30,192 nt of DNA from a virus, in the IMG/VR virus record IMGVR_UViG_3300001827_000016, positions 1 to 30,192 of that record, one strand, 5' to 3'. Shown here piece after piece: positions 2,489 through 18,658 of this stretch. The notes beneath the pieces were generated by a model. That model did no database searches. It had not been told where the DNA came from and saw only the letters and a list, made by a program, of their open reading frames with translations. Position 1 is the stretch's first letter, and every line of letters begins with the position of its first letter. A program made the position numbers and the translations under genes.

Positions 2489-3217
2489 CTATGAAGGCTG
2501 TGTGTAGTTTGATGAGTAGTAGAATGTCCCCAACAAGATTTCAGAACCTTTAGACCAACTAGATGGGTTTTTTATTCTAAGCCCCCACCAAGTGTAACCA
2601 GCGGTTCTTGCGCCAGAAGCATCGTTTGTAACTAAAGAAATGATGCCTTCGTTGTAAACTCCAGACTGGTAGACGGCTCCGCCAGTTCCTATTTTCCCGT
2701 CAGCGTCCCAACTAATTGCATATGTTCTGTTGCCGCCTTGTGAGCCGCTAGAGCCAGCGTCCCATCTGCAAACAATGTTTGTTACATTAGAACTAGTTGT
2801 ACCACCGTAAAGAAGAACGTGCTGAGAGTTGGACGCTACATCTTCATTTTGTTGTATGGTTAAACTGGCGCTTGTTATAAATCCAGTTCCAGCATGGAAA
2901 ACTGGTTGATAAACAATGGAGTTTGTGCCAACGCTAAATGTAGATGGAGAGGCCGTGCTACTTTGGGCTGTTAGCCCTGTGGCGCTGTTATAATACCCGT
3001 AGTCCATTTTGACTTGCAGGCTTCTTGTTTGAGTGCCTGCGCTACCGTAAAAATCACTTAAGTCGAGTACGCCAGAGGTCGGTATATTTGTGTTTATAGC
3101 ATTGTTGGCAACGTTACTTCCGCTTCTATAATACTCACTCATAGAAACTGGGTTTGAGCCTCCAAACTGAGTCTGCAAGTCAGAAAGGTTAATAGTGCCG
3201 GAGGTTGGTAGCGCCAT
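2489..3217 (-). CDS. Marine-phage fibre-type structural protein
   Basis: A 242-residue protein. It opens with the motif PTSGTINLSDLQTQFGGSNP, followed by SMSEYYRSGSNV, and a second degenerate copy IPTSGVLDLSDFYGSAG near residues 46-62. I recall the 'SG-x-I-x-LSDLQTQFGG-x-NP-x-SMSEYYR' opening from tail-fibre proteins of marine phages and cyanophages. The rest is Ser/Thr/Gly-rich and beta-like, as expected for a fibre or receptor-contact domain. It lies between the fibre gene at 3220-4143 and the tail hub gene and is closely packed with both. Confidence 0.7.
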   Translation of the reverse strand: MALPTSGTINLSDLQTQFGGSNPVSMSEYYRSGSNVANNAINTNIPTSGVLDLSDFYGSAGTQTRSLQVKMDYGYYNSATGLTAQSSTASPSTFSVGTNSIVYQPVFHAGTGFITSASLTIQQNEDVASNSQHVLLYGGTTSSNVTNIVCRWDAGSSGSQGGNRTYAISWDADGKIGTGGAVYQSGVYNEGIISLVTNDASGARTAGYTWWGLRIKNPSSWSKGSEILLGTFYYSSNYTQPS

Positions 3218-3219
3218 GT

Positions 3220-4143
3220 TTATACAGTCCCATAGGCTGTAACATCATCCGCAGAGGTAATTTGACCATTAGTTCCAATTTTAGCAACGCCAGTGCCGTT
3301 ATAACTAAACACTAGTTCGTTACTGACTACACTTATGGTCCAACTACCTAGTGTAAAGGTACTGCCGCTAATTGGCACTGTGGAAAAACTCAAAGTTCCA
3401 GAACCGTCTGTCTGTAAATATTGACCATTCGTGCCATCAGTCGATGGGTATGAAAGATTACTAATAAGCACCTTACCAGTGCCATTACCATCTAAAGACA
3501 AGTTGGCATTGGTGTTTGTTACTGTTATAGCATTCCCGTTAATGTTGACATTATCTACGTCTAGGTCGCCAGTAATGTTTGTAGTGCCTGTGATGTTAAC
3601 CGCGCCAGTCCCATCTGGAATGATGTCAATGTCGCCGTTAGAAACTGACACAATATCGTGTCCATTAACATCCAAATTGCCGCCAAGCTGAGGGGTCGTG
3701 TCGTTTACTAGGTCTGTGTTTGGGGTCAAAGATTTGAACACACCAGACGCGCCGCCACCGTCACCAGTAACTGCTTGTGTAGCACCAGAAGCAATCTCTA
3801 CGCCATTTGATGTTGAGTATGTGACGCCTTTATAGATAACTCTGCAAGCGGCATCTGTCTCGTTCTTAATGGTGTAGTTTTTCTCTTGGTCAGTAGGTGT
3901 AACTCGAAGCTCAAAAGTGACGCCCGGAGAGCCAGTAAGAACAAGAACTGTGTGAGCGCCGTCAGAAACAGAGCCGTCATTTGTCACTAAATCTTGACTG
4001 CCAGATATAGCAATTTGAGCCTGCCCATGTAAGGCGCGGTCAATAATGTCAAAATTGGTGTTGGTGGTTACGCCCCATGTTCCTGACTGGTCGCCAGTAC
4101 CCGGTTTTTCTATACCAACATTTTGAGTGTATGTGCTAGGCAT
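3220..4143 (-). CDS. Tail fibre protein with repetitive beta-helix-like shaft
   Basis: A 307-residue protein. Residues 1-40 (TYTQNVGIEKPGTGDQSGTW, then NFDIIDRALHG) resemble the N-terminal attachment region of many marine-phage tail fibres. The centre holds a shaft-like part with short repeats (GGNLDVNGHDI, GAVNITGTTNITGDLDVDN, NINGNAITVTNTNANLSLDG) alternating N, G, D and hydrophobic residues, as in triple beta-helices. The C-terminus has a small globular segment. A Shine-Dalgarno-like AAAAGGTGG precedes the start. Likely role: receptor recognition or fibre shaft. The class is well supported; receptor and exact position in the virion are unknown. Confidence 0.75.
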   Translation of the reverse strand: MPSTYTQNVGIEKPGTGDQSGTWGVTTNTNFDIIDRALHGQAQIAISGSQDLVTNDGSVSDGAHTVLVLTGSPGVTFELRVTPTDQEKNYTIKNETDAACRVIYKGVTYSTSNGVEIASGATQAVTGDGGGASGVFKSLTPNTDLVNDTTPQLGGNLDVNGHDIVSVSNGDIDIIPDGTGAVNITGTTNITGDLDVDNVNINGNAITVTNTNANLSLDGNGTGKVLISNLSYPSTDGTNGQYLQTDGSGTLSFSTVPISGSTFTLGSWTISVVSNELVFSYNGTGVAKIGTNGQITSADDVTAYGTV

Positions 4144-4863
4144 TTATACCACCTTTTGAATCCATGTTTCTATTGTACCATTTGCATTTACAGGTGTCCA
4201 TGTGCCGCCAGAAACACTTATCTGCGTCCATGTTTCTGCTGGCGTGTTGGCATTTATCTTTTCCCACAATAGGGCGCCGTCTGCCGTTTGAATGAATGCA
4301 TATTCAACATTGAAGTCGTTTCTGTAAATCAATATCCCGGCAGTTTCATCAAAATCAAATGTAAAGCTGTTATCTATAACGCCATTTGTAACAACGCCGC
4401 CGGACGCCTCTTTTGTAAATGCAGACTCGCTTTCAGACCTTCCTACAAAAACAGTGTTTGCGTTGTTAGATTTTGTAAAGCTATACACATTTTCTGAAGA
4501 AGCAGAACGAACAGCAACGCCATCAGATTCTTGTGTAAAGTTAGAGCTTTGTTCTGCCGCGCCGACAGCTATAGTCTGTGCATTAGATGACTGGTCAAAA
4601 CTAATTACATCTGCGGAAACGCCAGTTGCGAATCTTGTAAGGTCTGAACTTAACTCAAAGTTTGTTGTGGACTCTACCTCACCAGTTAAAATGCCAACGC
4701 CTATAGATGTTTTTGTGGCAATTGCAGAAAGTTCCATAGAACCTTTTCCAACAATATTCCCAGCATCAGATACAGTGAAATTTGCATCAGCGGTTGCAGA
4801 CCCAAAGGTTAAAATACCATGCGCCGCGATAGCTCTTTCAGATAATGCAAATTCACCAAACAT
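4144..4863 (-). CDS. Repetitive fibre-like structural protein
   Basis: A 239-residue protein, strongly enriched in S, A, T, N, G and V. Degenerate repeats of about 35-45 residues run through residues 28-180; recognisable copies include NAQTIAVGAAEQSSNFTQES and NANTVFVGRSESESAFTKEA, which share the frame N-A-x-T-h-x-V-G-x-x-E-x-x-S-x-F-T-x-E. The C-terminal 60 residues contain spaced tryptophans (LWEKINANTPAETWTQISVS). The repeats suggest an elongated shaft. It starts on the stop codon of the preceding gene and is followed directly by the tail fibre gene. No enzymatic motif is seen. Confidence 0.65.
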   Translation of the reverse strand: MFGEFALSERAIAAHGILTFGSATADANFTVSDAGNIVGKGSMELSAIATKTSIGVGILTGEVESTTNFELSSDLTRFATGVSADVISFDQSSNAQTIAVGAAEQSSNFTQESDGVAVRSASSENVYSFTKSNNANTVFVGRSESESAFTKEASGGVVTNGVIDNSFTFDFDETAGILIYRNDFNVEYAFIQTADGALLWEKINANTPAETWTQISVSGGTWTPVNANGTIETWIQKVV

Positions 4864-5420
4864 TAACCTGCGATTTCCATAAGTGTTAATACTGAAATTG
4901 GCCTTACGCCATAATCGGCGTCATCATCTTGATTGCTTCTGTTTATGTACAAGTTTCTGCTTCCGACTTCGCTTGCAACTTGAATCTTATAAGTTGTTGC
5001 AGAAGTTGTAGCAGGGCTGTCTAAATAATGATGCATCAAAGTTCTTACTTTATAAACTTCTGAACCAGCATTTGCGTGCATCATAGAAAAAGCGCAATCT
5101 GTTCGGTTACTTGAGGCCGCACCATTACCAATCTCAGTGCTTCCTCTTAAAATATATCCAGTTGCATAAAGATTTATATCGCCCCCATAAGCAATAGAAA
5201 CTGAAACCAAGATTTTATTTGATGTACTAGATGGCGTAATTGAAGCAGAAAGACCAGTTACATCCACAGGGGAAGTGCTTTGGGTAAAAAAGGTGTCATC
5301 TTTAGTAGCCTGCACCACCTGCAACACACTCCCAGAAGGCAAACTTGCCGACACAACTTTACCAGACGGAATTGTGGTGCTTGTTCCCATCAAGTCAGCA
5401 AGTATTCGAGCGTTACTCAT
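4863..5420 (-). CDS. Small fibre protein, 'SITPSSTSNKILV' family
   Basis: A 185-residue protein. The diagnostic core is VLQVVQ near residue 32, then TGLSASITPSSTSNKILVSV, then a segment with HHYLDSPATTSATTYKIQV, ending LTLMEIAG. The same core, spacing and C-terminal E-I-(A/G)-G occur in the genes at 6349-6825 and 12817-13377, so these are paralogues. The N-terminal leader differs from the usual one of the array. A CCGGAGTAAGCT context places a good Shine-Dalgarno before the ATG. I infer a tail-tip or fibre knob domain; no enzymatic signature is visible. Confidence 0.65.
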   Translation of the reverse strand: MSNARILADLMGTSTTIPSGKVVSASLPSGSVLQVVQATKDDTFFTQSTSPVDVTGLSASITPSSTSNKILVSVSIAYGGDINLYATGYILRGSTEIGNGAASSNRTDCAFSMMHANAGSEVYKVRTLMHHYLDSPATTSATTYKIQVASEVGSRNLYINRSNQDDDADYGVRPISVLTLMEIAG

Positions 5421-5423
5421 AGC

Positions 5424-5816
5424 TTACTCCGGCTTATCAGGCCACACCACATCGTCAAGTGATGCATAAGAATCGGTTATGTCGCGCAGTGCCTGACGAT
5501 AGGCGGTACGTTCTGCGGTCATAGTAAGGTCGGACGATGCCCACCAGTCTGTTTCAGCGATACGGCGGTTACGCTCTTCGCGCAGACGCTTCAAAGGCTC
5601 TGCCGCGTTAAGCTCGGCTAGTTTATCTTCGACCGCGTTCCATGTAATGCCCTGCCAGTCATCATCTTCGTTTGACTCGATTGCCGTGCCGTTCTCATCT
5701 GAGCCTGTGACCACAGAGAACATGGTGTTAAACTCATAGGCATCGGTTGGCTCTCCGCGTAGAACCCACTGTAGGTCTGGATTTAATGCTGATATTGCGT
5801 CTGATACTGTTGCCAT
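5424..5816 (-). CDS. Tail fibre assembly chaperone-like protein (Phage_tail_APC type)
   Basis: A 130-residue protein with an acidic N-terminal half and a C-terminal segment REERNRRIAETDWWASSDLT followed by YRQALRDITDSYASLDDVVW and a final proline-rich WPDKPE. The R-x-x-R-x-x-x-L/I-x-x-(T/S)DW and YRQALRDI motifs are hallmarks of the Phage_tail_APC family, linked to tail fibre assembly. Its place within fibre genes fits this. It starts at the stop codon of the preceding C1q-type gene (TAATG). The role is inferred from the family; a chaperone-substrate pair cannot be assigned from sequence. Confidence 0.7.
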   Translation of the reverse strand: MATVSDAISALNPDLQWVLRGEPTDAYEFNTMFSVVTGSDENGTAIESNEDDDWQGITWNAVEDKLAELNAAEPLKRLREERNRRIAETDWWASSDLTMTAERTAYRQALRDITDSYASLDDVVWPDKPE

Positions 5817-6352
5817 TATTTAAGCCTTCTTCCCCAGCAATTGAAATTACTGTCGTTTGTATCCCATGAATCATAACTGTTATGATATCCCCAAAGAATT
5901 TTATCTCCTTGAGATAACGAAACAATTCTATGACATGAGGTGGTATAGCCATAATAGTTATTTCCTGCAAAGGCAGTATCAATCTGATTTGTACCGCTAC
6001 TTGATTTATGGTAGACGTACAAACCTCTGTATTGGTTTGTTGTTCCAAATTGAGTAACAACACAAAACTCATAAATTCCATCTGCCGGAGCTACCATAGC
6101 TCCATCTGACCCCATAAGACCAGCTTGATTGATAATAGTTGTCCTATAGCCTGAAGGACAAACAATGTTTGGACCTACGCCTTCATATCCAGCAGATTGA
6201 AAACCACTAACACCAGAGAATGAAAAAATCGGGTGGTTATTATCTAATAAAAAAGTTCCAGTTCCTGAAACATTGCCACTGTTGTCAATCGTCAGCGCGG
6301 TGTTCGAGTTTGTCGGGTCTTGAATCTCGGAGACTTTCAATATGCTGGTCAT
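5816..6352 (-). CDS. Small fibre protein, C1q-like candidate
   Basis: A 178-residue protein opening with the array leader (MTSILKVSEIQDPTNSNTAL, then TIDNSGNVSGTG). The body has aromatic and glycine positions of a C1q/TNF-like jelly roll: APADGIYEFCVVTQFG near the centre and LSQGDKILWGYHNSYDSW near the end. It pairs with the gene at 6830-7345, which has the same leader subtype (TALTID-S/N-SG) and a clearer C1q pattern. The start overlaps the preceding stop by four bases (ATGA). Likely a trimeric receptor-binding knob; the fold is a resemblance, not demonstrated. Confidence 0.6.
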   Translation of the reverse strand: MTSILKVSEIQDPTNSNTALTIDNSGNVSGTGTFLLDNNHPIFSFSGVSGFQSAGYEGVGPNIVCPSGYRTTIINQAGLMGSDGAMVAPADGIYEFCVVTQFGTTNQYRGLYVYHKSSSGTNQIDTAFAGNNYYGYTTSCHRIVSLSQGDKILWGYHNSYDSWDTNDSNFNCWGRRLK

Positions 6353-6825
6353 CCGCCTATCTCCATGGCTGTTAAATGTGCAGTCGGCGAAGCGTAACCA
6401 CTATAACTTGCGTTAAAATACACCGTAGTAGCGGAGCCTTGCGTTAGATACTGGACTTTATATGTTAAGGCAGATGTTGTTGCAGGTGAATCTAAATGAG
6501 CAAAACTTCCAGCACCGTATGTGCCGCCAGAGTTTGTATAAGAGTCCCCTCTATAAAAAAGAGATGTAGACCCCCTAACCAGTTGAGTTACCATCCCGTT
6601 TGAAGAGTTAGAACTACCTGTTCCATAATCAGCCATTATTAAGATTTTTGAAGAGGAGCTAGTAGGTGTTATTGTAACTGAAAGCCCTGTATCTACAAAA
6701 GATGTTGAAGTGGTTGATGGTGTTGAAGTTATTGTTGATTGAACAACCTGCAACACATGACCCGGAATATATATCCCGTTGCCGCTGGTCTTTTCATTTA
6801 TTGTATCTACATATAATGTTGACAT
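6349..6825 (-). CDS. Small fibre protein, 'SITPSSTSNKILV' family
   Basis: A 158-residue protein. The leader STLYVDTINEKTSGNGI is the array leader; the body has HVLQVVQSTITS, then TGLSVTITPTSSSSKILIMA, then FAHLDSPATTSALTYKVQYL, ending LTAMEIGG. It aligns over nearly its whole length with 4863-5420, and the middle and C-terminus match 12817-13377. It sits between two C1q-like genes. Ser/Thr-rich beta sequence suggests a virion surface domain. Only a weak AGG-type ribosome site is visible before the ATG. Confidence 0.65.
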   Translation of the reverse strand: MSTLYVDTINEKTSGNGIYIPGHVLQVVQSTITSTPSTTSTSFVDTGLSVTITPTSSSSKILIMADYGTGSSNSSNGMVTQLVRGSTSLFYRGDSYTNSGGTYGAGSFAHLDSPATTSALTYKVQYLTQGSATTVYFNASYSGYASPTAHLTAMEIGG

Positions 6826-6829
6826 CTTA

Positions 6830-7345
6830 TTAACCTATTAAGTAGCCTTGAAAGTGCGGCGTACCTTCGTCTGCGGTTGAATATTGGTACAAATACAAAT
6901 TAGCTACATTTACTCTAATATAATCGTTAGCTGTCATTTGTAATATAAATGATGTGTTAGCAGATAAATACGCAGAAGCATTAGTGTAAGCGTAAAATTC
7001 TCTAGCTATATCCCAAGTTGAAGCATCTGAACTGGTTTCAAAATTTACTACTATTGTTCCTGATGTTACATTACCATTAGATGCACAAGCAAAAGCATTT
7101 AGCATAAAACAATAAACTCCAGTTACAGGTGCTTGAAAATAATGATTGGTTGTATCGTAATGGTTTCCAGTATTAAATATTGTACTGTTAAATTGTAGTA
7201 CACCATTAATCCCGCCTTGCGTACCTATTTTTCTCACACAAAAAGCTGGCTTTGCTGGTGTAAGAATACGCCCACTGCTGTCAATCGTCAGCGCGGTTGT
7301 CCCTGCGGCGTTGTTAATCTGGTCTACATTTAATATCGAAGCCAT
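6830..7345 (-). CDS. Small fibre protein with C1q-like domain
   Basis: A 171-residue protein. Residues 1-30 are the array leader (MASILNVDQINNAAGTTAL plus TIDSSGRIL). From about residue 33 the pattern is that of C1q/TNF-like jelly rolls: AFCVRK, then LQFNSTIFNTGNHYDTTNHY, then FQAPVTGVYCFMLNAFA, then a late segment FILQMTANDYIRVNVANLYL, ending FQGYLIG. The N-x-G-x-x-Y-(D)…F-x-A-P-(V)-x-G-(V)Y-x-F signature is the part I rely on. C1q-like domains form trimers and bind surface ligands, which fits a receptor-binding tip. It follows a gene with a GPLT-type C-terminal domain. Confidence 0.65.
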   Translation of the reverse strand: MASILNVDQINNAAGTTALTIDSSGRILTPAKPAFCVRKIGTQGGINGVLQFNSTIFNTGNHYDTTNHYFQAPVTGVYCFMLNAFACASNGNVTSGTIVVNFETSSDASTWDIAREFYAYTNASAYLSANTSFILQMTANDYIRVNVANLYLYQYSTADEGTPHFQGYLIG

Positions 7346-7352
7346 GCCTGCC

Positions 7353-8081
7353 TCACAATATAGTCAAGTTACCGTTGACGGTAATCGAAGTTGATGTGCC
7401 AATGGTCAGTGGCCCAATAGCCAATGCGTTCTTGGTCGAGCCAATGGTTGTGTTCTGTGTTACGCTTTGGTCGTTGGTTCTAAACACCGCCGTATCCACC
7501 GTTGTATTAGTGGTCTGGAATGACGGCGCGGTTATCTCGCCTGCAAACGTGCCGCCAGTAGATGCCCCCACCGTATCGGTTACGGTAAATGCACGGTAAG
7601 CCCTGATAACAAGCTCGTCACTTGCCGCCGCACCAGACGCTAAAGTAATTGTATCGCCGTTGCTAGGTGTGTAATCCGTGCTGTCCAGATGCACACCATT
7701 CAAATATACATCCACATCATTGCCAGAGAAAGCTAAAACAGCACCGTTATAATCCGCACCTGTAAAAGCTGTCTGGCTGGCAGTTGCTACATACTTAAAC
7801 AACGCCATTGCATAGCTGGTAGGCTGGTCTACGGCGCGACCAAAAAAGCGCACGGTAATTACATCTAAGTTAGCTGGTGGGGCTGAGAAGGTCAGAGTGT
7901 TGCCGTATGCTGTGTACGCGGCAGAGGCTCCCGGTTCTTGGACCACGTTACCAATAGTCACGATAAGAGCTTCGCCACTCACAACCGACTGGGCAAGTGT
8001 GAACGCGGTAGTCGTTCCATCACCTGTAAAGGTCTGGTAGCTAATGTCGCCTACATTTGGGTCTATGCCTATATACGCCAT
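7353..8081 (-). CDS. Fibre protein with tandem beta domains and GPIT-type C-terminal domain
   Basis: A 242-residue protein starting MAYIGIDPNVGDISYQTFTG. Two related domains of about 70 residues follow: the first has FTGDGTTTAFTLAQSVVSGE and QEPGASAAYTAYGNTLTFSA; the second (about 90-165) has VDVYLNGVHLDSTDYTPSNG and a closing DELVIRAYRAF. The C-terminal 45 residues (FRTNDQSVTQNTTIGSTKNA, then GPLTIGTSTSITVNGNLTIL) match the C-terminus of the genes at 9260, 11491 and 13370. An in-frame ATG at 8117 exists, but the start at 8081 overlaps the previous stop (TAATG) and matches the paralogue MAYVG start at 12009. Likely a fibre or fibre-base subunit. Confidence 0.7.
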   Translation of the reverse strand: MAYIGIDPNVGDISYQTFTGDGTTTAFTLAQSVVSGEALIVTIGNVVQEPGASAAYTAYGNTLTFSAPPANLDVITVRFFGRAVDQPTSYAMALFKYVATASQTAFTGADYNGAVLAFSGNDVDVYLNGVHLDSTDYTPSNGDTITLASGAAASDELVIRAYRAFTVTDTVGASTGGTFAGEITAPSFQTTNTTVDTAVFRTNDQSVTQNTTIGSTKNALAIGPLTIGTSTSITVNGNLTIL

Positions 8082-8461
8082 TACGCTAGGTCTCCCATAA
8101 TTATAGCTCCGCCCCAACCATCAACCCATCCTGACCCATTACCGTAGACCAAGAAATCACACTTCCCTGTTCCAAAGTTTGCAGATAAATATTTTGATTT
8201 AGCCCAATCATCTGCGGAATTACCACATTGACTAGCCACTGCCCAATCATCATTAACCATACTTGCCGTGAAATCTACTTGACTTTGACCTACCGCTAAG
8301 TCTGTCAAAGAGGAACAGTTAAAGCTGTCTGGAATGCTCTGCGTTCCTTGCTGGTTTATGTCAAACCAAACCTTCGCACTACCGTTAATTACATAGGTAG
8401 TATCTACAGACTCGGTGCCTGCGTTGTTAGCCAGCGTTGTTAGTCTCAGTTCGCTTGCCAT
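8081..8461 (-). CDS. Small fibre protein, SLTD/HGDLA family, leader subtype x
   Basis: A 126-residue protein. Leader SELRLTTLANNAGTESVDTT, then YVINGSAKVWFDINQQGTQS, then the family core IPDSFNCSSLTDLAVGQSQV, a variable Gly/Asp/Trp-rich C-terminal part, and the ending IIMGDLA (others end HGDLA). The VxNGxAKxW leader form is shared with 10303-10677 and 12407-12814. It is the third gene of a y-z-x triplet (9260, 8868, 8461). Start and stop codons both overlap neighbours by one base (TAATG). I infer a fibre tip or decoration domain; biochemical role unknown. Confidence 0.65.
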   Translation of the reverse strand: MASELRLTTLANNAGTESVDTTYVINGSAKVWFDINQQGTQSIPDSFNCSSLTDLAVGQSQVDFTASMVNDDWAVASQCGNSADDWAKSKYLSANFGTGKCDFLVYGNGSGWVDGWGGAIIMGDLA

Positions 8462-8478
8462 TATGCTAGGTCTCCGTG
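8457..8478. repeat. Gene-junction repeat, 22 bp
   Basis: Plus strand GCCATTATGCTAGG followed by TCTCCGTG. It carries the last HGDLA codons and stop of the upstream gene and the ATG of the next gene. It is identical at 12403-12424; one base differs at 8864 and 12005. Confidence 0.8.
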
Positions 8479-8868
8479 ATTTGTAACGGACACACGGTCC
8501 ATGTCATAAGCGGTGTTAGAAAGATGACGAGTGTGGGGGTGCATTGCACTAGAAGTTGAGACAACCGTATCCGATGTTAATACTCCATAATATGTATTAT
8601 TCCCAACAACAGAGCCAGCTATACTATAATGTGCGCTAGACATATTGTTTGTGTATGTTACGGTCTGTCTGCCTGTCGTTACATCAGTTAGGCTAGATGC
8701 GTTTAGGCTATCATCTATAGCTGGTGTTCCTGTACCATCGTAACACGCCCAAGCCTTCGCCACCCCCTGCTGAAGTGACTGTGTCGCAGAGCCACCCTCG
8801 CTGGTAATCGTAATATCACCAGCCGATACAATACCCCGCAGTTCATCTACCTTTAAGATACTTGCCAT
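8461..8868 (-). CDS. Small fibre protein, SLTD/HGDLA family, leader subtype z
   Basis: A 135-residue protein. Leader SILKVDELRGIVSAGDITIT, then a linker with QSLQQGVAKAWACYDGTGTP, the core AIDDSLNASSLTDVTTGRQT, then TNNMSSAHYSIAG, a variable region with HPHTRHLSN, and the ending VTNHGDLA. The AGD(I/V)TIT leader form is shared only with 10677-11117. It is the middle gene of the y-z-x triplet. Both ends overlap neighbours by one base and carry the conserved junction repeat. Probably a virion surface domain; no catalytic motif is seen. Confidence 0.65.
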   Translation of the reverse strand: MASILKVDELRGIVSAGDITITSEGGSATQSLQQGVAKAWACYDGTGTPAIDDSLNASSLTDVTTGRQTVTYTNNMSSAHYSIAGSVVGNNTYYGVLTSDTVVSTSSAMHPHTRHLSNTAYDMDRVSVTNHGDLA

Positions 8869-8885
8869 TATGCGAGGTCTCCGTG
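8864..8885. repeat. Gene-junction repeat, 22 bp (one mismatch)
   Basis: Plus strand GCCATTATGCGAGG followed by TCTCCGTG; differs from the 8457 copy by one base (GCGAGG for GCTAGG). It spans the stop of the gene at 8868-9260 and the start of the next gene. Confidence 0.8.
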
Positions 8886-9260
8886 TGCTACTGCCGCAAT
8901 ATATGCGTCATCATTTTGGCCGTTTGCACCTACGTCTCTTGAATTTTCAGCGTATCTACCTGTAGTATCTGAACTAGCAATAACATATCTATTGTAGTTA
9001 TTAGTTCCCATAGTCCCTTCTTGTACTGGACTACTACTGCCTGTTACAGTATGTGATGCACTGCTCATACTATTTGTATAATTTCCATATAAACAGCCTG
9101 TTGCTCTGTCTGTGAAACTAGCAATATTGAAAGAGTCGGGAATACTGTTATCGCTCATATCAAACACTCCATGTGCTTTAACAGTTGTTTGCTTAGTCAA
9201 TGTAACCGGGTCGGTGCCGTTAGCGGCTACTAAGGTATCTACGTTCAACTGACTAGGCAT
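8868..9260 (-). CDS. Small fibre protein, SLTD/HGDLA family, leader subtype y
   Basis: A 130-residue protein. Leader SQLNVDTLVAANGTDPVTLT followed by KQTTVKAHGVFDMSDNSIPD, the core SFNIASFTDRATG, then YTNSMSSASHTVTGSSSP, a variable region and the ending AAVAHGDLA. The 'GT-x-P-(V/A)TLTKQ' leader is shared with 11114-11494 and 12009-12407. First gene of the second y-z-x triplet, just after the short GPIT-type gene at 9260-9451. It starts on that gene's stop (TAATG-type overlap). I infer a fibre domain with a variable, possibly receptor-facing C-terminal part. Confidence 0.65.
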   Translation of the reverse strand: MPSQLNVDTLVAANGTDPVTLTKQTTVKAHGVFDMSDNSIPDSFNIASFTDRATGCLYGNYTNSMSSASHTVTGSSSPVQEGTMGTNNYNRYVIASSDTTGRYAENSRDVGANGQNDDAYIAAVAHGDLA

Positions 9261-9451
9261 TAAACAATACTCCAGTAACCGTTAACAGTCACAGTTGCGT
9301 TCTGCGTAATCGGCCCTGCCGATACGCCATTCTGGTCAGCATCAATGGTAAAGTCCGTGGATATCGTATTGCCGTTACGGCGCACGATATTCTCGTCCTT
9401 CGACTCTTCTTGATTATTGACTAAGTCAGGATGTAGCTTGCTTAGAGCCAT
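9260..9451 (-). CDS. Short GPIT-type fibre protein
   Basis: A 63-residue protein starting MALSKLHPDLVNNQEESKDE. The second half (FTIDADQNGVSAGPITQNAT, then VTVNGYWSIV) matches the C-terminal domains of 7353-8081, 11491-12009 and 13370-13582. The MALS opening is shared with 13370-13582. An AGAAGGG ribosome site precedes the ATG. It heads a set of three SLTD-family genes, so it may be the shared base on which those proteins assemble; that link is inference from gene order. Confidence 0.65.
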   Translation of the reverse strand: MALSKLHPDLVNNQEESKDENIVRRNGNTISTDFTIDADQNGVSAGPITQNATVTVNGYWSIV

Positions 9452-9463
9452 AACCCTTCTCCA

Positions 9464-9835
9464 TTAGCTGGAGTAAGGGCTAGCACCCAATGTGTCTGAA
9501 TCCCAAGCGGCTTTCAGTTCAGCAATGGTTGAGGCATCGGCAATAGCAGAAGCGTCTGTCGCATCACGAAGCGCATTCTTAGCAGAAGCAATAGCAGTTG
9601 TGCTGTTGCCTTCTTCCAATGCCTTCATCAACTCAACGTCCTTTGCTTCTAACAAAGGCTTACGCACTTCACGGATTTTATCCTTGAAGATTTCCTTTGC
9701 CTTGTCCATGTCCTCAGAAATTACCGAGCCGTTCAGTGTCCACGCGCCGCGAAAATCACGGTTTGCTGGCACAGTTGCTGACGCGGCATCAATCTGATTG
9801 CCTTCTTTGTCAACAATATATGTAGTTACAGCCAT
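9464..9835 (-). CDS. Tail-chaperone-like alpha-helical protein
   Basis: A 123-residue protein. The N-terminal part TTYIVDKEGNQIDAASATVP is followed by NRDFRGAWTLNGSVISEDMD and a long charged helix (KAKEIFKDKIREVRKPLLEA, KDVELMKALEEGN), then an Ala-rich tail. I recall the FRGAW…DM-x-KA-x-x-I-x-x-x-x-IR-x-x-R-x-PLL arrangement from small proteins next to phage tail fibre genes, often annotated as tail assembly chaperone-like. The helical, charged make-up contrasts with the beta-rich neighbours, fitting an assembly factor. An AGGAGT ribosome site precedes the start. Function is inferred. Confidence 0.6.
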   Translation of the reverse strand: MAVTTYIVDKEGNQIDAASATVPANRDFRGAWTLNGSVISEDMDKAKEIFKDKIREVRKPLLEAKDVELMKALEEGNSTTAIASAKNALRDATDASAIADASTIAELKAAWDSDTLGASPYSS

Positions 9836-9844
9836 TCTTTACTC

Positions 9845-10303
9845 CTATGCTGATATTTCATTTGAAATGCGCCATGCATTTCGCCATTCCCGCGTCTGCG
9901 GTAATTGCTCTTTACGACATATTACCATCTTTGGACGGTTGCCGCTATTCCAATCCTGCCAAACGCTTTGTGGGCAGTCCTTGAGAATTAAGTATTCGAT
10001 GGCTTCCTCTTCGGTCATAGCTGGCACAGGCTCAGTCTCATGCAATAGATAGCCACGAGTATGCTTCTTAAAGTCTGGCCGGGCTTCATCCTTTGCCAGT
10101 TCGTGATACACCCACACAGGCGGTAAGATGCCGCCCTGTAAAGCACAGGCCATCCAATTTGGGTCAGGCACAAGTATCTTGGCGCACTCATCAATGCTGT
10201 CCTCATACACCACACGGTAGTCTGACTGATGGGCTTCTAGGTTTTCCTTTGCCCAGCACAGTCTATCCCAGAGATGTGTGCCTTGAAATTCAGGTGTTTG
10301 CAT
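9845..10303 (-). CDS. Conserved protein of unknown function within the fibre array
   Basis: A 152-residue protein, soluble, rich in W, E, H and R and unlike its beta-rich neighbours. Notable segments are CWAKENLEAHQSDYRVVYED, KILVPDPNWMACALQG, YHELAKDEARPDFKKHTRGY, EEEAIEYLILKDCPQSVW and a C-terminal RKEQLPQTREWRNAWRIS. I have an impression of similar proteins next to marine phage fibre genes but do not recognise a family. Placed next to a chaperone-like gene, it could be an assembly factor. Its ATG overlaps the stop of the SLTD gene upstream, within a copy of the junction repeat. Confidence 0.6.
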   Translation of the reverse strand: MQTPEFQGTHLWDRLCWAKENLEAHQSDYRVVYEDSIDECAKILVPDPNWMACALQGGILPPVWVYHELAKDEARPDFKKHTRGYLLHETEPVPAMTEEEAIEYLILKDCPQSVWQDWNSGNRPKMVICRKEQLPQTREWRNAWRISNEISA

Positions 10304-10320
10304 TATGCTAGGTCTCCGTG
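10300..10320. repeat. Gene-junction repeat
   Basis: Plus strand GCATTATGCTAGG followed by TCTCCGTG, identical to the 8457 copy from CATTATG onward. Here the downstream gene is not a fibre paralogue but the unknown protein at 9845-10303, so the repeat belongs to the 3' end of the SLTD gene rather than to the start of the next one. Confidence 0.75.
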
Positions 10321-10677
10321 TATTCCTGTAGAAGTAACTTCCGCATCCAAAGCAGTAGCATTACTTGGGTATCTGCTTAATATGTCGTAATCAGATGTGG
10401 TTAAAGCTCCGCTACCAGACGGCCCAATACAACGCCAATCGCTCTCACCTATAAGCAACCCATAATTTACATTATTCATACTGTTGGTAATTGCTATAGT
10501 ATAATCACCCGTACCATTATCCGTTAAACTTGACGCAGATAAGCTGTCAAGAATTGCGGCTGTTCCACTGCCTATAAATCTAACCCAGTGTTTTGCTACA
10601 CCCTCCACAACATAGCTGGTGGATATATCAGCACCAGCACCTGTCTCGATTGTATCTGCTATAATCTTGCCAGCCAT
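10303..10677 (-). CDS. Small fibre protein, SLTD/HGDLA family, leader subtype x
   Basis: A 124-residue protein. Leader GKIIADTIETGAGADISTSY, then VVEGVAKHWVRFIGSGTAAI, the core LDSLSASSLTDNGTGDYTIA, then TNSMNNVNYGLLIG, a variable region, and the ending STGIHGDLA. The V-(V/I)-x-G-x-AK-x-W leader form matches 8081-8461 and 12407-12814. It is the third gene of the first y-z-x triplet (11494, 11117, 10677). Likely a tail fibre tip subunit; only the family resemblance within this window supports this. Confidence 0.65.
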   Translation of the reverse strand: MAGKIIADTIETGAGADISTSYVVEGVAKHWVRFIGSGTAAILDSLSASSLTDNGTGDYTIAITNSMNNVNYGLLIGESDWRCIGPSGSGALTTSDYDILSRYPSNATALDAEVTSTGIHGDLA

Positions 10678-11117
10678 TATGCTAACTCCGATATTTTGCC
10701 AAAGTAATTTCCATCAAGGTCATGAGCCGCACCATCTTGCGACCCATGAGAACCATAAAAATATCGCATACGAATTGTACTTGTGGCGTTGTTTAAGTGA
10801 TGTTGACTTGTATCATTTCCAGCCCTTTGATATCCAGACGCTTCACCACCGCCTCGACTATTCCACGGCAGGCTGATAACCATTCTGTCTGTTGCAGAAG
10901 CAGAGTTATTGGTAAAGGTCATAGTAAAATCACCAGTGCCATTATCTGTTAATGATGATTGGTTAAAACTTCCGTTTTGACTTGAGTTATACGCATCATA
11001 GTTAGTCCATCCTGTGCATATACCTTCTTGCAGTTTCATAGTAGAAGTACCAGACGTAATCGTCACATCGCCAGCAGAAGCCTTGCCAGTAAGTTTGTTT
11101 GTAATAATCTCACTCAT
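10677..11117 (-). CDS. Small fibre protein, SLTD family, leader subtype z
   Basis: A 146-residue protein starting MSEIITNKLTGKASAGDVTI. Then a linker with MKLQEGICTGWTNYDAYNSS, the core GSFNQSSLTDNGTGDFTMTF, a variable region containing WNSRGGGEASGYQ, and the ending NYFGKISELA instead of HGDLA. An in-frame start at 11189 is possible, but the ATG at 11117 gives a four-base ATGA overlap with the preceding gene and the standard leader. It shares the AGDVTIT leader with 8461-8868, each being the middle gene of a triplet. The loss of HGDLA matches a degenerate junction at its 3' end. Confidence 0.65.
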   Translation of the reverse strand: MSEIITNKLTGKASAGDVTITSGTSTMKLQEGICTGWTNYDAYNSSQNGSFNQSSLTDNGTGDFTMTFTNNSASATDRMVISLPWNSRGGGEASGYQRAGNDTSQHHLNNATSTIRMRYFYGSHGSQDGAAHDLDGNYFGKISELA

Positions 11118-11494
11118 GCTAGGTCTCCGTGAATTTGACTTATTGCATATGCAAAATCTTCTGCCGCAAGAGTGTCCGTCCGAAAACATTTCATATCAAC
11201 CTCTGAGGTTGTTATTGTGGAACCGGGACAAGAAACAGTCCGTCCAGAGTTTGCAGTTGAAATGTTGCCACTTGCTACGGGGGAATAATTAGCGGTACTC
11301 ATAGTTGATGAAAATGTTAATTTGTAGTTAGACAACCCAACATCCGTCAAAGTGCTAATATTAAAACTATCCCGTAAATTTGCTGTGCTTGTGCCGTCAA
11401 TATTTGCCCACGCCTTTGCCGCACTCTGCTTAGTCAGCGTGACAGGGCTACTGCCATTTGCCGCTACGATTGTATCTGCTTTTAATGTACTCAT
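11114..11494 (-). CDS. Small fibre protein, SLTD/HGDLA family, leader subtype y
   Basis: A 126-residue protein. Leader STLKADTIVAANGSSPVTLT and KQSAAKAWANIDGTSTANLR, the core DSFNISTLTDVGLSNYKLTF, then SSTMSTANYSPVASG, a variable region and the ending AISQIHGDLA. The leader closely matches 12009-12407 (TLTKQSAAK) and 8868-9260. It is the first gene of the first y-z-x triplet. Both ends overlap neighbours by four bases (ATGA). Role inferred as a fibre domain with a variable distal half. Confidence 0.65.
   Translation of the reverse strand: MSTLKADTIVAANGSSPVTLTKQSAAKAWANIDGTSTANLRDSFNISTLTDVGLSNYKLTFSSTMSTANYSPVASGNISTANSGRTVSCPGSTITTSEVDMKCFRTDTLAAEDFAYAISQIHGDLA
11115..11131. repeat. Gene-junction repeat, shortened
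   Basis: Plus strand CATGCTAGGTCTCCGTG. Here the stop is TGA within ATGA rather than TAA within TAATG, but GCTAGGTCTCCGTG is unchanged, so the HGDLA codons are kept base for base. Confidence 0.7.
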
Positions 11495-12009
11495 AGCGTC
11501 ACCAATGTCCCGCCTGTGTTAACCGTTACTGTAACACCTGTTGCCACTGTTATAGGGCCTGTGACAGAAGCATTTTCTGTCGCCGCAATAGTGACATTGT
11601 TAGATACAGTTTGCTCATTGATTTGAAACATTTCGGTCTTTGTCTTGTCAGTTGAAGTTGTGAACTTCGTGCCTGTCACCGTACTACTAAATGTACCTGT
11701 GGTTGCCGCTAACGCCTGATTGGCATCATGCTCTAACCTTGTTGTGACTTCTGCCAAGCCACGGTAAATCACATATATGTTACCCGTACCTGTCTGCGGA
11801 GCTTCAGTAAAGGTCAGCGTAGTACCCGTAGCGGTATATGATTTACCAGAACCCGGCTCCTGTTGCAGGTTGTCAACAAACACTTCCAACTCTTCGCCTG
11901 TGTTCACGGCACGGTTAAGTGTGAACACGGTTGTCGAACCATCGCCGTTGAAACTCTGGCTAGTGACCTTCGTTAACTGCTTCTGTGGTTGTGCGCCTAC
12001 ATATGCCAT
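11491..12009 (-). CDS. Fibre protein with one beta domain and GPIT-type C-terminal domain
   Basis: A 172-residue protein starting MAYVGAQPQKQLTKVTSQSF. The first domain has NGDGSTTVFTLNRAVNTGEE and QEPGSGKSYTATGTTLTFTE, the same pattern as domain 1 of 7353-8081. A linker with an Ala/Thr-rich segment follows, and the C-terminus (FQINEQTVSNNVTIAATENA, then GPITVATGVTVTVNTGGTL) is the GPIT-type domain. Compared with 7353-8081 it lacks the second 70-residue domain. It heads the first y-z-x triplet. Likely a fibre base or adaptor; confident as a paralogue, uncertain in role. Confidence 0.7.
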   Translation of the reverse strand: MAYVGAQPQKQLTKVTSQSFNGDGSTTVFTLNRAVNTGEELEVFVDNLQQEPGSGKSYTATGTTLTFTEAPQTGTGNIYVIYRGLAEVTTRLEHDANQALAATTGTFSSTVTGTKFTTSTDKTKTEMFQINEQTVSNNVTIAATENASVTGPITVATGVTVTVNTGGTLVTL

Positions 12010-12026
12010 TATGCGAGGTCTCCGTG
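12005..12026. repeat. Gene-junction repeat, 22 bp (one mismatch)
   Basis: Plus strand GCCATTATGCGAGG followed by TCTCCGTG, identical to the 8864 copy. It joins an SLTD-family gene to a gene of another family (MAYVG type), so the repeat tracks the 3' end of SLTD genes plus a shared start context. Confidence 0.8.
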
Positions 12027-12407
12027 CAACAATGTAAAGTTAAACTTTTGGTCATAATTTGTGCTACCGTTGCCCATATCAACCACATCAACAGGATATT
12101 GGCCTGTGTTAAAAGTACCACCTGCATCCCTTTTGAAAGCAATTCCCCTTCTATTGGAATCTCCGCTATCGTGATTTGATAATCCTGTAACAGCAACATC
12201 ACTTGTAGAACTTACGCTGTTAGTCAGTGACGTAGTGAAATTTCCTGTAGAATCGTCACTTACACTGCTTACATTGAAGCTACCAGTAATGGCAGGGGTT
12301 TCTTGATTATATTGAAGCCATTGTTTAGCCGCACTCTGCTTGGTAAGAGTAGCAGGGCTGGTGCCATCGCTGGCGGCAATTGTATCTACATACATTTCTG
12401 ATGCCAT
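12009..12407 (-). CDS. Small fibre protein, SLTD/HGDLA family, leader subtype y
   Basis: A 132-residue protein. Leader SEMYVDTIAASDGTSPATLT and KQSAAKQWLQYNQETPAITG, the core SFNVSSVSDDSTGNFTTSLT, then NSVSSTSDVAVTG, a variable region with RRGIAFKRDAGG, and the ending FTLLHGDLA. TLTKQSAAK is shared with 11114-11494. It precedes the MAYVG-type gene and follows a subtype x gene, so it is outside the ordered y-z-x triplets. Both ends overlap neighbours by one base. Confidence 0.65.
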   Translation of the reverse strand: MASEMYVDTIAASDGTSPATLTKQSAAKQWLQYNQETPAITGSFNVSSVSDDSTGNFTTSLTNSVSSTSDVAVTGLSNHDSGDSNRRGIAFKRDAGGTFNTGQYPVDVVDMGNGSTNYDQKFNFTLLHGDLA

Positions 12408-12424
12408 TATGCTAGGTCTCCGTG
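12403..12424. repeat. Gene-junction repeat, 22 bp
   Basis: Plus strand GCCATTATGCTAGG followed by TCTCCGTG, identical to the copy at 8457-8478 although the two lie about 4 kb apart and join different gene pairs. Confidence 0.8.
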
Positions 12425-12814
12425 TACTACTAATTTCTGATTGGGATAATCATACAGCGACCATGATGTTCCAGCACCTGCCCCTGAATAACCATACGCC
12501 ATTTTTGTTAGTGCTGTTGTTTGACCAAAGATAGAACAAATATTCGCACCAAAATTTGAATTCGGGGTGCTACCATTAGAATTATCCATAGTTCCAGCGT
12601 GATATGCGTTATTAAAACTGTTTGTAAAATTAACGGTACACAAACCTGTTCCGTCATCCGTGCGAGAACTCTGGTTCAAGCTGTCATATTCAGTGTTTGT
12701 AGATGGGTCAAACCGTGTCCACATTTTCGCAGTACCATTGACCACATAATCCATGTCCACGGAACTCGTGCCAGCATTGTTCTGTAATGTATCTACTTTT
12801 ACAATACCAACCAT
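12407..12814 (-). CDS. Small fibre protein, SLTD/HGDLA family, leader subtype x
   Basis: A 135-residue protein starting MVGIVKVDTLQNNAGTSSVD. Then YVVNGTAKMWTRFDPSTNTE, the core YDSLNQSSRTDDGTGLCTVN, then FTNSFNNAYHAGTMDNSNG, a variable region with GAGAGTSWSLYDYPN, and the ending KLVVHGDLA. A start at 12865 is possible but would run through the preceding gene; the ATG at 12814 lies two bases after that gene's stop. Leader form matches 8081-8461 and 10303-10677. Likely a fibre tip subunit. Confidence 0.65.
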   Translation of the reverse strand: MVGIVKVDTLQNNAGTSSVDMDYVVNGTAKMWTRFDPSTNTEYDSLNQSSRTDDGTGLCTVNFTNSFNNAYHAGTMDNSNGSTPNSNFGANICSIFGQTTALTKMAYGYSGAGAGTSWSLYDYPNQKLVVHGDLA

Positions 12815-12816
12815 AA

Positions 12817-13377
12817 CTACCCCGCTATTTCTGTAACGCAAATGTGAGAAACGCCTCGTTCCCATTGATTGGTGTCTGTGCTACCAACAGTTTGATTCAA
12901 GTACCAGTTTACAGCACTGCCAAGTGCTTGATTTACACCAACCTTATATGTTACTTGCGAAGTTGTGCTTGGCGTATCAAAATAACTATAGACTGCTGTT
13001 TCTGGTGTAGAGCCAGCGTCTGCCGTATGATAGCTACGACTACTAGCCATAAGAATACCTACGTTTCTATTGCCAGCGGCAGGTGCAGATAACTTTGTGG
13101 AGTCTCTATAAAAAAACCAAACAGAGTTATAAATAGACGAATCGTCCGCCCATTCTCCGTTTACCATAGCTTCTATTTTAATAATGCTATTAGTAGATAC
13201 AGGGGTTATGTTAACAGCTAAAACGCTAATCTCTGTGTCAGTATTTGCCCCACAGCTAATCACTGATGTTGCATCAATCTGTGTGTACTGCGTTTGAATA
13301 ATACCGCCCTGCGGCATTAAAACCTTACTACCGCTAGTCTTAGGTGCAATCTCATCTACAAGTATCTTACTAGACAA
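12817..13377 (-). CDS. Small fibre protein, 'ITP…SKI' family, TTG start
   Basis: A 186-residue protein. Leader SSKILVDEIAPKTSGSKVLM is the array leader. The core (VNITPVSTNSIIKIEAMVNG, then YSYFDTPSTTSQVTYKVGVN) and the ending HICVTEIAG match 4863-5420 and 6349-6825. The start is TTG at 13377, eight bases before the end of the upstream gene, with GGAG about nine bases ahead; the next in-frame ATG would remove the conserved leader. Role inferred as a fibre surface domain. Confidence 0.65.
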   Translation of the reverse strand: MSSKILVDEIAPKTSGSKVLMPQGGIIQTQYTQIDATSVISCGANTDTEISVLAVNITPVSTNSIIKIEAMVNGEWADDSSIYNSVWFFYRDSTKLSAPAAGNRNVGILMASSRSYHTADAGSTPETAVYSYFDTPSTTSQVTYKVGVNQALGSAVNWYLNQTVGSTDTNQWERGVSHICVTEIAG

Positions 13378-13582
13378 CGGTTAGCACTCCATTAACAGTA
13401 ATCGTTGCAGAAATAGTTATAGGCCCAAACGCACCAGCGTTCTCCGTTGACGCAACAGTCAGCGCGGTATCAATGCTTGTAGCGTTGGTACGAAAAGGAT
13501 TGGTAGTTGTGCTAGCCAACATATCCTCGTTCTTAATACCGCCGTTCTTGAACTGGTTTGTGTCAATGGTGCTAAGAGCCAT
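13370..13582 (-). CDS. Short GPIT-type fibre protein
   Basis: A 70-residue protein starting MALSTIDTNQFKNGGIKNED. After a short linker (NPFRTNATSIDTALTVASTE) comes the GPIT-type domain NAGAFGPITISATITVNGVL. Same layout as 9260-9451 (MALS opening plus GPIT end). It is the first gene of the array in transcription order and starts on the stop codon of 13582-13911. The MALS-T-I-D-x-NQF opening is one I associate with N-terminal parts of marine phage fibre proteins, so this may be a split-off fibre N-terminus. Confidence 0.65.
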   Translation of the reverse strand: MALSTIDTNQFKNGGIKNEDMLASTTTNPFRTNATSIDTALTVASTENAGAFGPITISATITVNGVLTVV

Positions 13583-13911
13583 TAGCTAATCTCCAGAATA
13601 CTCATTGTCACATCAGCGGCAGATGCCTGTGATGCTGTAACCTTCAATACATCTGATGCGTTCATAACAATCTTCTGGTCGCCGCCAACAGCCACCAAAG
13701 CAGAACCAACAGGAACAATGGCATCCTTTACAAGATACACATTGTCGCCATCATTGTTCTCTAGCTGAACGTCCACGGTAATAGAAACGGACAGAATGTT
13801 TGCCACATTCAGGCCGATGATTGTTGTTTCTGTAGCGGCAGGGCAGGTGTATATGGTAGCGGCACTCGTCCCTACTGCTGTGTCTGTAACTGTCTTAAAC
13901 GAGTTCGCCAT
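13582..13911 (-). CDS. Small beta-rich structural protein
   Basis: A 109-residue protein, FKTVTDTAVGTSAATIYTCP at the start, then ETTIIGLNVANILSVSITVD and a late segment VPVGSALVAVGGDQKIVMNA, ending MSILEIS. Alternating hydrophobic residues suggest a compact beta sandwich. I recall proteins with this 'A-T-x-I-Y-x-C-P-(A)…I-x-G-L-x-V-A-N' pattern as small virion proteins in marine phages and cyanophages. AGGATAG precedes the ATG at suitable spacing. Exact virion position unknown. Confidence 0.65.
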   Translation of the reverse strand: MANSFKTVTDTAVGTSAATIYTCPAATETTIIGLNVANILSVSITVDVQLENNDGDNVYLVKDAIVPVGSALVAVGGDQKIVMNASDVLKVTASQASAADVTMSILEIS

Positions 13912-13915: not shown

Positions 13916-14503
13916 CTATCCTAATGCTATCGCAAATGCTAAAGCCTGCGGGTCTTGCTCTGTAAAGTTTACAGCCGTACCGCTGGCATCATTATAAATC
14001 ATTTTTTCAGCAGGCATTGTACAGAATATTGTACGAGTTCCCGCCGTCCAGTTTATCTTTTCATCACCTATTGTAAGCGCAGTGTCATCTGCTAACGTAA
14101 CGGCAGTGTCCAACACAATACTTGTCTGGCTGTTCACTGTAGCAATAGTTACAACGCCGGAGATTCCAGAGCCTCTGACGCGCTGTCCCACTGTTAGAGT
14201 GCCTCCTTGCACGTTATCAACTGTAACGGCTGTAGAGGCGCTCACAGCGCCGTTAACGTCTGCTGTAATCTTTGTGCTACTGCTTTCTAGAACAGTGTCC
14301 CTAGATAGGGTTGTGCCAGACAATGTATATGTGCCTATACCGACCTCAAAGTCCGTGCCGTCAGAGCATCCATAATAGGTGGTGTTTCCATCACCTATTG
14401 TTGAAAACGCATCAAAGCCACTAACCGCACCGCCCAGAGTAAATGTTCCAGTTCCTGTGGTTGTTGTGGTTTCTTTTACACGGTCTTTGATTGTCAGTGC
14501 CAT
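13916..14503 (-). CDS. Virion structural protein with one inserted 65-residue module
   Basis: A 195-residue protein. Residues 1-79 (ALTIKDRVKETTTTTGTGTF, YYGCSDGTDFEVGIGTYT, LSRDTVLESSS) and 148-195 (INWTAGTRTIFCTMPAEKMI, ending FAIALG) resemble a small structural protein that I recall as common in marine phages. Between them, residues 80-145 are a module (ADVNGAVSASTAVTVDNVQG … LDTAVTLADDTALTI) that occurs twice in the upstream gene. The module appears to interrupt the normal run from ESSS to KINW. No Shine-Dalgarno is obvious; a GTAC palindrome lies directly before the ATG. Confidence 0.7.
   Translation of the reverse strand: MALTIKDRVKETTTTTGTGTFTLGGAVSGFDAFSTIGDGNTTYYGCSDGTDFEVGIGTYTLSGTTLSRDTVLESSSTKITADVNGAVSASTAVTVDNVQGGTLTVGQRVRGSGISGVVTIATVNSQTSIVLDTAVTLADDTALTIGDEKINWTAGTRTIFCTMPAEKMIYNDASGTAVNFTEQDPQALAFAIALG
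14069..14266 (-). repeat. 65-residue beta module, copy 3
   Basis: Encodes residues 80-145 of the structural protein: TADVNGAVSAST, then V-x-G-(S/T)GISG-x-VT, then TVNSQTSIVLDTAVTLADD. It matches copies 1 and 2 at 15017 and 14630 at protein level and partly at DNA level. Confidence 0.75.
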
Positions 14504-14517
14504 TTGTACTACCGTAC
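14504..14517. promoter_or_regulatory. GTAC palindrome-type element, copy 2
   Basis: Plus strand TTGTACTACCGTAC. On the coding strand GTACGGTAGTACAA ends directly at the ATG of the gene at 13916-14503, in the short gap between two genes. Only one base differs from copy 1. Confidence 0.4.
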
Positions 14518-14521
14518 CTTT

Positions 14522-17979: not shown

Positions 17980-17980
17980 A

Positions 17981-18658
17981 TTAGCCTCCTAAGTAAAACG
18001 TGTCGTATGGCACGAACTTGATTGACGATGAGTCTGAGTCTTCCCCGGCCGCTAATTCAAACTGGAACTCATACTCTTGTTTAAGCGGAGCCACACGAGC
18101 CGCCACTTCAGGTTTTTTCATGGCGATATAATACGCCAACCCAGCCACCAAACACGGAACAAATCTTGGCGGCACATCAGCACTTGACCCTATCCCAGAC
18201 GAGACGCCAGAGATTCCGCGAAGGCGGAAATACGATAGAGTATATGTGCTAACATCTGGCACAGGCCAGAGCGTAACATTGACAGCCGTTGCTTGACGGT
18301 CAACATAAATTTGAGAGGGGCGTCCTTCAGTGTTTTTAGCCGCTTGTTGAGCATAGGTAGAAACACTGATACGCTCGACATTCGTATCAATCTGATTCGT
18401 GCCTGAACCCGTCCTAATTTGGTGTTCAATGAGGTCAATAGTGTCCGCAGGCATACTGTAAGTTGCCGTGCCTGCTGTAAGAGATATAGTGCCACTGTCA
18501 ATGGTCCAGAGATTAAGGCCACGGTTCTGCCACTCCAAAGTCAATAGGTTGAGACTACGCCTCGCTGTCTTGAGGTCATAGCCAGTTGTCATTTGAAGCC
18601 CAGCACGTTCAAACGCTTCTTCAAAAATTTCTGGTAAGTCTGGTGTTACTACAGCCAT
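17981..18658 (-). CDS. P22 gp4-like head-completion / tail adaptor protein
   Basis: A 225-residue protein. It opens PDLPEIFEEAFERAGLQMTT, then YDLKTARRSLNLLTLEWQNR and GLNLWTIDSGTISLTAGTAT, followed by YSMPADTIDLIEHQIRTGSG. The helical start with LNLL-x-x-(E)WQN-R-G-x-N-LWTI, then a beta region and a C-terminal helix (LVAGLAYYIAMKKPEVAARV) is typical of the gp4-like tail adaptor family of short-tailed phages. These proteins sit at the portal-tail junction. Start and stop overlap or abut neighbours. No murein hydrolase motif is seen here. Confidence 0.7.
   Translation of the reverse strand: MAVVTPDLPEIFEEAFERAGLQMTTGYDLKTARRSLNLLTLEWQNRGLNLWTIDSGTISLTAGTATYSMPADTIDLIEHQIRTGSGTNQIDTNVERISVSTYAQQAAKNTEGRPSQIYVDRQATAVNVTLWPVPDVSTYTLSYFRLRGISGVSSGIGSSADVPPRFVPCLVAGLAYYIAMKKPEVAARVAPLKQEYEFQFELAAGEDSDSSSIKFVPYDTFYLGG

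Follow-up and report, generated by a model that had tools for sequence, protein, structure and literature searches.

A repeated plan of one GPIT gene and three tip genes in a viral array of small fibre-like genes

We analysed a 30,192-base stretch of DNA from a marine virus, the whole of IMG/VR record IMGVR_UViG_3300001827_000016 (hereafter the window) and probably a fragment of a virus genome, and found that its array of small fibre-like genes at positions 2489–13911 follows a fixed plan, in which one gene with a GPIT-type end is followed by three genes for different tip proteins. Comparison with related loci directly showed this one-plus-three rule, N-terminal sequences (keys) specific to each slot, exchange of tips across keys and genomes, and a ribosome-binding site at the gene ends. 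We consider it probable that the array works by position-coded docking of many different adhesins, which are shown together and whose tips are replaced by recombination.

The array comprises 24 consecutive genes on the minus strand, encoding proteins of 63–307 amino acids (aa; corrected starts), with nearly all gene junctions between −8 and +12 nucleotides. The first-pass annotation had recognised more than 20 consecutive small genes here, and the open reading frames were borne out as it had placed them; three starts were corrected (7353–8117 to 8081, 10677–11189 to 11117 and 12407–12865 to 12814). The richness in Ser, Thr, Asn and Gly that it described holds for 20 of the 24 proteins (combined fraction 0.36–0.48), compared with 0.16–0.30 in 8 of 9 sampled structural genes outside the array (14522–15571 having 0.40). 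The exceptions within the array are 5424–5816, which matches a Pfam chaperone family; 9464–9835 and 9845–10303 (0.15–0.24), whose products are charged and not fibre-like; and 13582–13911 (0.32). Its five internal families were likewise confirmed: HGDLA/SLTD (hereafter HGD; eight members), ITP-SKIL (three), C1q-like (two, one of which matches Pfam C1q), MAY(I/V)G (two) and GPIT ends (four). PHROG matches of the array proteins were to tail fibre families, mostly as segments of longer fibres: in a 708-aa fibre profile the ITP type covers the C-terminal part, GPIT aligns to the extreme end of a 3,319-aa profile and MAYIG to an N-terminus.

The one-GPIT-plus-three rule was absent from the first-pass annotation and was found in this analysis, in which genes in 238 sequences were labelled by profiles. 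In the interval from a GPIT gene to the following landmark, three tip genes of any fold were present in 146 of 153 blocks of related loci (78/81 where the boundary was the homologue of 9845–10303, here w9845; 9/10 where it was another GPIT gene), and runs of HGD genes in block A numbered exactly three in 66 of 69. The plan in labelled loci opens with a leader and a GPIT gene followed by three tips; next come the homologues of 9845 and 9464 and a slot that is optional, then a second GPIT gene with three further tips, and last a terminal slot. Where the middle slot is not HGD, it holds a C1q gene, an ITP gene with a chaperone, or a gene of 200–350 aa, and both outer slots remain HGD. By first coordinate, the window's four blocks are Z (13370; 12817, 12407, 12009), A (11491; 11114, 10677, 10303), B (9260; 8868, 8461, 8081) and C (7353; 6830, 6349, 5816), followed by a terminal tip gene (4863); with accessory genes these make up the array, which has 13 tips. 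No published description of the rule was found in the literature searched. The genes, including their counterparts in the cultured phage HMO-2011, are as follows:

13582–13911, minus strand: conserved leader gene, 109 aa; 47% identity to HMO-2011 orf42, and before the first GPIT gene in many loci
13370–13582, minus strand: block Z stem-end (GPIT), 70 aa; GPIT profile match, three tip genes next
12817–13377, minus strand: block Z tip 1, ITP-SKIL type; phrog_6942 tail fibre, E 6.8e-16
12407–12814, minus strand: block Z tip 2, HGD type, corrected start MVGIV; sequence and profile
12009–12407, minus strand: block Z tip 3, HGD type; profile
11491–12009, minus strand: block A stem, MAYVG N-terminus and GPIT end, 172 aa; phrog_18673, phrog_5342, homologue of HMO-2011 orf41
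11114–11494, minus strand: block A tip a1, HGD type, key type 1; slot profiles, homologue of HMO-2011 orf40
10677–11117, minus strand: block A tip a2, HGD type, key type 2, corrected start MSEII; slot profiles, ends ISELA with GGAG kept
10303–10677, minus strand: block A tip a3, HGD type, key type 3; slot profiles, homologue of HMO-2011 orf37
9845–10303, minus strand: very conserved accessory protein, 152 aa; 84% identity to HMO-2011 orf36
9464–9835, minus strand: conserved accessory protein, helical and charged; 77% identity to HMO-2011 orf35, phrog_20196
9260–9451, minus strand: block B stem-end (GPIT), 63 aa; C-terminus 77% identical to HMO-2011 orf33
8868–9260, minus strand: block B tip b1, HGD type, key type 1; slot profiles, HMO-2011 comparison
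8461–8868, minus strand: block B tip b2, HGD type, key type 2; slot profiles, structure predicted
8461–8475, minus strand: example of the embedded ribosome-binding site (GGA GAC CTA GCA TAATG), at the end of 8461–8868 and overlapping the next start
8081–8461, minus strand: block B tip b3, HGD type, key type 3; slot profiles, homologue of HMO-2011 orf29
7353–8081, minus strand: block C stem, MAYIG and GPIT end, 242 aa, corrected start; profile, heads block C in six contigs too (L088, L105, L106, L123, L168 and L174)
6830–7345, minus strand: block C tip c1, C1q type; Pfam C1q, E 1.2e-8
6349–6825, minus strand: block C tip c2, ITP-SKIL type; phrog_6942
5816–6352, minus strand: block C tip c3, C1q-like type; profile, resembles the N-terminus of HMO-2011 orf31
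5424–5816, minus strand: tail-fibre assembly chaperone (Phage_tail_APC); Pfam PF16778, E 4.7e-11
4863–5420, minus strand: terminal-slot tip, ITP-SKIL type, key MSNARILAD; key strings, phrog_6942, E 6.8e-19
4144–4863, minus strand: conserved downstream structural gene (MFGE...); also 3′ of the array in L003, L006 and L017
3220–4143, minus strand: conserved downstream structural gene; phrog_31104, E 6.6e-28, weak match to connector phrog_677
2489–3217, minus strand: conserved downstream fibre-like gene; PHROG profile scan, comparison with relatives

Each tip protein consists of a slot-specific N-terminal key of ~30–38 residues, a junction around AK|AW and a tip of ~95 residues. Models of the N-terminal 50 residues, trained on slots a1, a2 and a3, sorted b1, b2 and b3 correctly in every case (138/138; 46/46 per slot), compared with 56/138 for models of the C-terminal half in the same A-to-B test (13, 23 and 20 of 46). 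In a nearest-neighbour test over six slots, the neighbour came from the same slot for 325 of 336 keys and 128 of 336 tips, and the key of a slot persisted despite a change of tip fold. Among 89 pairs of near-identical tips, 34 sat on different keys. Eight such swapped pairs were examined: the tip DNA was 87–99% identical, the key DNA 51–59%, and the gene after the tip 52–63% in seven pairs and 100% in one, indicating exchange bounded near AK|AW and, usually, at the gene end. Keys also correlated with the conserved framework gene (r 0.36–0.49), and tips did not (r 0.03–0.14). The variation seen is whole-tip replacement at 87–99% DNA identity, unlike the pattern left by diversity-generating retroelements (DGRs), for which no systematic search was made and part of the genome lies outside the window. 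A linear chain, with every key held by the preceding tip, is disfavoured, since swapping affects the tips and leaves the keys in place.

The gene ends carry a second regularity. The first-pass annotation had treated HGDLA as a hallmark of a protein family, a role that largely gives way to an embedded ribosome-binding site. G(D/E)LA forms the C-terminus of 532 of 551 HGD proteins, and its Gly codon is GGA in 523 of the 532 (background 20%) and never GGT or GGC. Overlap with the next start by 1 or 4 nucleotides was seen in 516 of 529 HGD genes, and 501 of these 516 contain GGAG; a scan independent of the gene caller agreed in 24 of 24 cases. From these sequence patterns the HGDLA ending is best read as mainly a ribosome-binding site that overlaps the next start codon and couples translation, since GGAG survives changes in the peptide (as in 10677–11117, which ends ISELA) and the Gly codon is nearly always GGA. 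We rejected a functional peptide alone as the main cause on the same grounds. The widespread peptide motif HGDLA is thereby explained.

The same kind of array occurs in HMO-2011 and in more than 100 marine contigs. Among 39 relatives of the neighbouring 592–2481 gene with enough upstream sequence (window included), four carried the array upstream of that gene, none of them with a gene of at least 450 aa there, whereas 28 of the 35 array-less relatives had such a gene. A contig with 85% identity in 592–2481 (L003) has an array of the same style with other contents, and uncultured relatives at ~70% identity have long fibres in its place. About 80 further loci were reached through the highly conserved gene 9845–10303. 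The same arrangement with different sequences in L003, L169, many further contigs and HMO-2011 rules out an assembly or frameshift artefact. Relatives with fused genes, a check the first-pass annotation had proposed, exist in part: the HGD domain is the C-terminal part of a single long fibre in SI2 (residues 375–491) and P-SSP6 (1606–1704), but many relatives keep separate genes.

In HMO-2011, orf28–42 form a colinear homologous array with nine colinear homologues of window genes, annotated in its records as separate putative tail fibre proteins. Blocks A and B, each with three tips, are present in both phages, and their accessory genes are 77–84% identical; HMO-2011 has two blocks and ~8 tips, whereas the window has four blocks and 13, and the middle slot of block A holds an ITP tip with a chaperone in HMO-2011 and the HGD tip a2 in the window. 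The backbones do not match, the HMO-2011 coat being P22-like and the window capsid gpT-like. By capsid and terminase, the nearest isolates to the window are Planktothrix phages, DSL-LC04 and the pelagiphages HTVC027P and HTVC023P, so only the array, and not the whole phage, is of the HMO-2011 type.

Two freshwater cyanophages, Nsp-JY18 and Mel-JY33, carry a single block where the window has four: a 422-aa fibre with a GPIT end, three HGD genes whose keys follow the order 1-2-3 (marginally so for the s2 key of Nsp-JY18), and then homologues of 9845 and 9464. Their virion genes are 92–100% identical except for the triad (keys 71–79%, tips 34–39%) and w9845 (84–87%), and their recorded hosts are Nostoc (Nsp-JY18) and Microcystis (Mel-JY33). 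The triad difference, a correlation drawn from a single pair and based on hosts as recorded, fits a role in host specificity. No paper on either phage was found in the literature searched.

The model of the HGD tip of 8461–8868 (residues 35–135) is all-beta, with a predicted local distance difference test (pLDDT) score of ~80–96, and is predicted to be a beta-sandwich foot resembling trimeric lectin-like fibre feet. Residues 35–134 aligned to the feet of phiAB6 (Z 8.1), Pam1 (Z 8.0), AP22 gp53 (Z 6.5) and the R1 and R2 pyocins (Z 5.0–5.1), and the foot of the LKA1 fibre also aligned (range across feet 5–8). Other tips carry Peptidase_S74 and occupy slots a2 and m.

Together, these observations suggest a multi-adhesin tail complex built of repeated units, each with one GPIT stem-end protein and three different tips. 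Each key would dock its protein at a separate site on the GPIT stem, and all slots would be filled at once, such that a virion may display ~13 different tips. That keys stay with the framework while tips move argues for fixed docking places and simultaneous display. The tips are putatively sugar-binding, usually through a lectin-like HGD foot and sometimes through a C1q-like, ITP-SKIL or S74-chaperoned one. Recombination between the AK|AW region and the conserved gene end would replace a single tip, leaving assembly undisturbed, and could shift receptor range. With less confidence, we suggest that each tip forms its own homotrimer and a unit three short mini-fibres.

Several points weigh against this reading. 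The array products are known here from their genes, and their presumed presence in particles is read from sequence. Loci were gathered by similarity to array genes, by which related genomes are over-counted; the terminal key serving as a block boundary was defined after inspection of the data; the gene caller rewarded start/stop overlap; and block Z was found in the window alone among the loci compared. The keys were modelled at low confidence (pLDDT 57–61), and their co-variation with GPIT was weak (Mantel test, partial r 0.16–0.25) and confounded by gene adjacency. Structural matches to the tip are of moderate strength, with Z no higher than 8.1 and Foldseek E values against PDB all above 0.02, and some non-virion genes also differ between Nsp-JY18 and Mel-JY33.

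It is possible, though doubtful, that a block's three tips combine 1:1:1 to form one short fibre of three differing chains on one GPIT stem. The constant number of exactly three tips per stem favours such a heterotrimer, as does the constant order of three key types, and the tip domain that ends the single fibres of SI2 and P-SSP6, presumably in three identical copies, may have been substituted in a triad by three paralogues. Obligate heterotrimers with three matching keys, an arrangement we hold to be rather unlikely, would give asymmetric fibres with up to a dozen adhesins and exchangeable parts. However, the unrelated folds combined within triads (HGD-ITP-HGD, HGD-C1q-HGD, C1q-ITP-C1q) and the S74-chaperoned tips, which are expected to homotrimerise, favour separate homotrimeric mini-fibres, and free tip swaps between slots are hard to reconcile with a shared tip interface. 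Homotrimers are usual in phage fibres; no report of heterotrimeric fibres was found in the literature searched.

The first-pass annotation had left a choice between a multi-subunit complex and alternative tips kept as separate genes. Slot-specific keys favour the former, and alternation survives between genomes only, where a slot's tip is replaced by recombination and its key stays. Within one genome, we find it improbable that one or a few tips are mounted per particle, with a clone yielding a mixed particle population: many tip genes for one tail and a start-proximal MxS-L-VD-like motif common to most tip proteins would suit this, but the different slot-specific keys, kept across distant phages, make competition for one site unlikely, and translation appears coupled along the whole series with no switch seen. 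Least probable is an ordinary hypervariable host-recognition cluster with random gain and loss of fibre genes and no fixed assembly plan, since although metaviromic islands of marine phages hold many genes for tail fibres, C1q and lectin-like proteins (PMC3909814) and the array tips are hypervariable, the one-plus-three counts, slot order and keys are conserved across unrelated backbones (the gpT-like capsid of the window, the P22-like coat of HMO-2011 and the freshwater cyanophages).

Position-coded docking may offer a simple, testable plan by which abundant aquatic phages carry many receptor binders at once, with a fixed count of one stem to three tips, constant position tags and mobile tips. 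Because key and tip are distinguishable, changes of host recognition in uncultured viruses can be read from sequence, and cultured phages with the same plan exist.

The accessory genes and surroundings add further detail. The product of 9464–9835 is likely a fibre chaperone, and that of 9845–10303, at least 85% identical in ~80 marine contigs amid hypervariable neighbours, is suspected to be an assembly factor or docking part. Its fold was weakly predicted (pLDDT 76), with no PDB match at Z ≥2 among the chains Foldseek offered, and no homologues were found in a bacterial genome scan. NGYWSIV ends 91 of 98 block-B GPIT genes. Structural genes lie on the minus strand, beginning with the terminase (28077–29603), continuing with portal, capsid and tail genes and ending with a 629-aa protein (592–2481; phrog_3287). 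Contig L002, 100% identical to the window in their overlap, adds ~10 kb downstream. Upstream of the array (13916–15571), two genes have in common a ~60-residue repeat (ADVNGAVSAST...VATVTSQ..IVLDTA), present in at least ~2 copies within 14522–15571. Between capsid and tail genes (16786–21278) lie several small Lys/Arg-rich proteins, some with Gly/Cys ends and one with a LysM-like stretch. A GroES-like co-chaperonin gene (24866–25315) lies near the scaffold gene, and roseophage CRP-902 has an annotated co-chaperonin GroES at the same place.

Two known receptor-binding systems bear comparison. The feet of R-pyocins and AP22 are trimeric lectin-like adhesin domains, the R-pyocin foot being distal, variable and receptor-binding (PMC6363177). 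This discoidin-like lectin fold is the C-terminal domain of a long fibre there, whereas the HGD tip of the window is mostly encoded by a separate gene with its own key. In the branched complex of Ackermannviridae (CBA120, S117), adjacent adhesin genes have conserved N-terminal docking and variable C-terminal receptor domains, and receptor-binding genes are exchanged by recombination with the function of the complex preserved (PMC11414711). The array resembles the CBA120 tailspike complex functionally, by analogy, sharing a run of neighbouring receptor-binding genes whose N-terminal parts are conserved and whose C-terminal parts vary. Pfam and PHROG scans of the scanned array proteins, whose keys were modelled at low confidence, gave no match to a gp10-like family. 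CBA120 docks four large tailspikes through T4 gp10-like XD domains, whereas the window has many short tips, keys of ~30 residues and a one-plus-three repeat.

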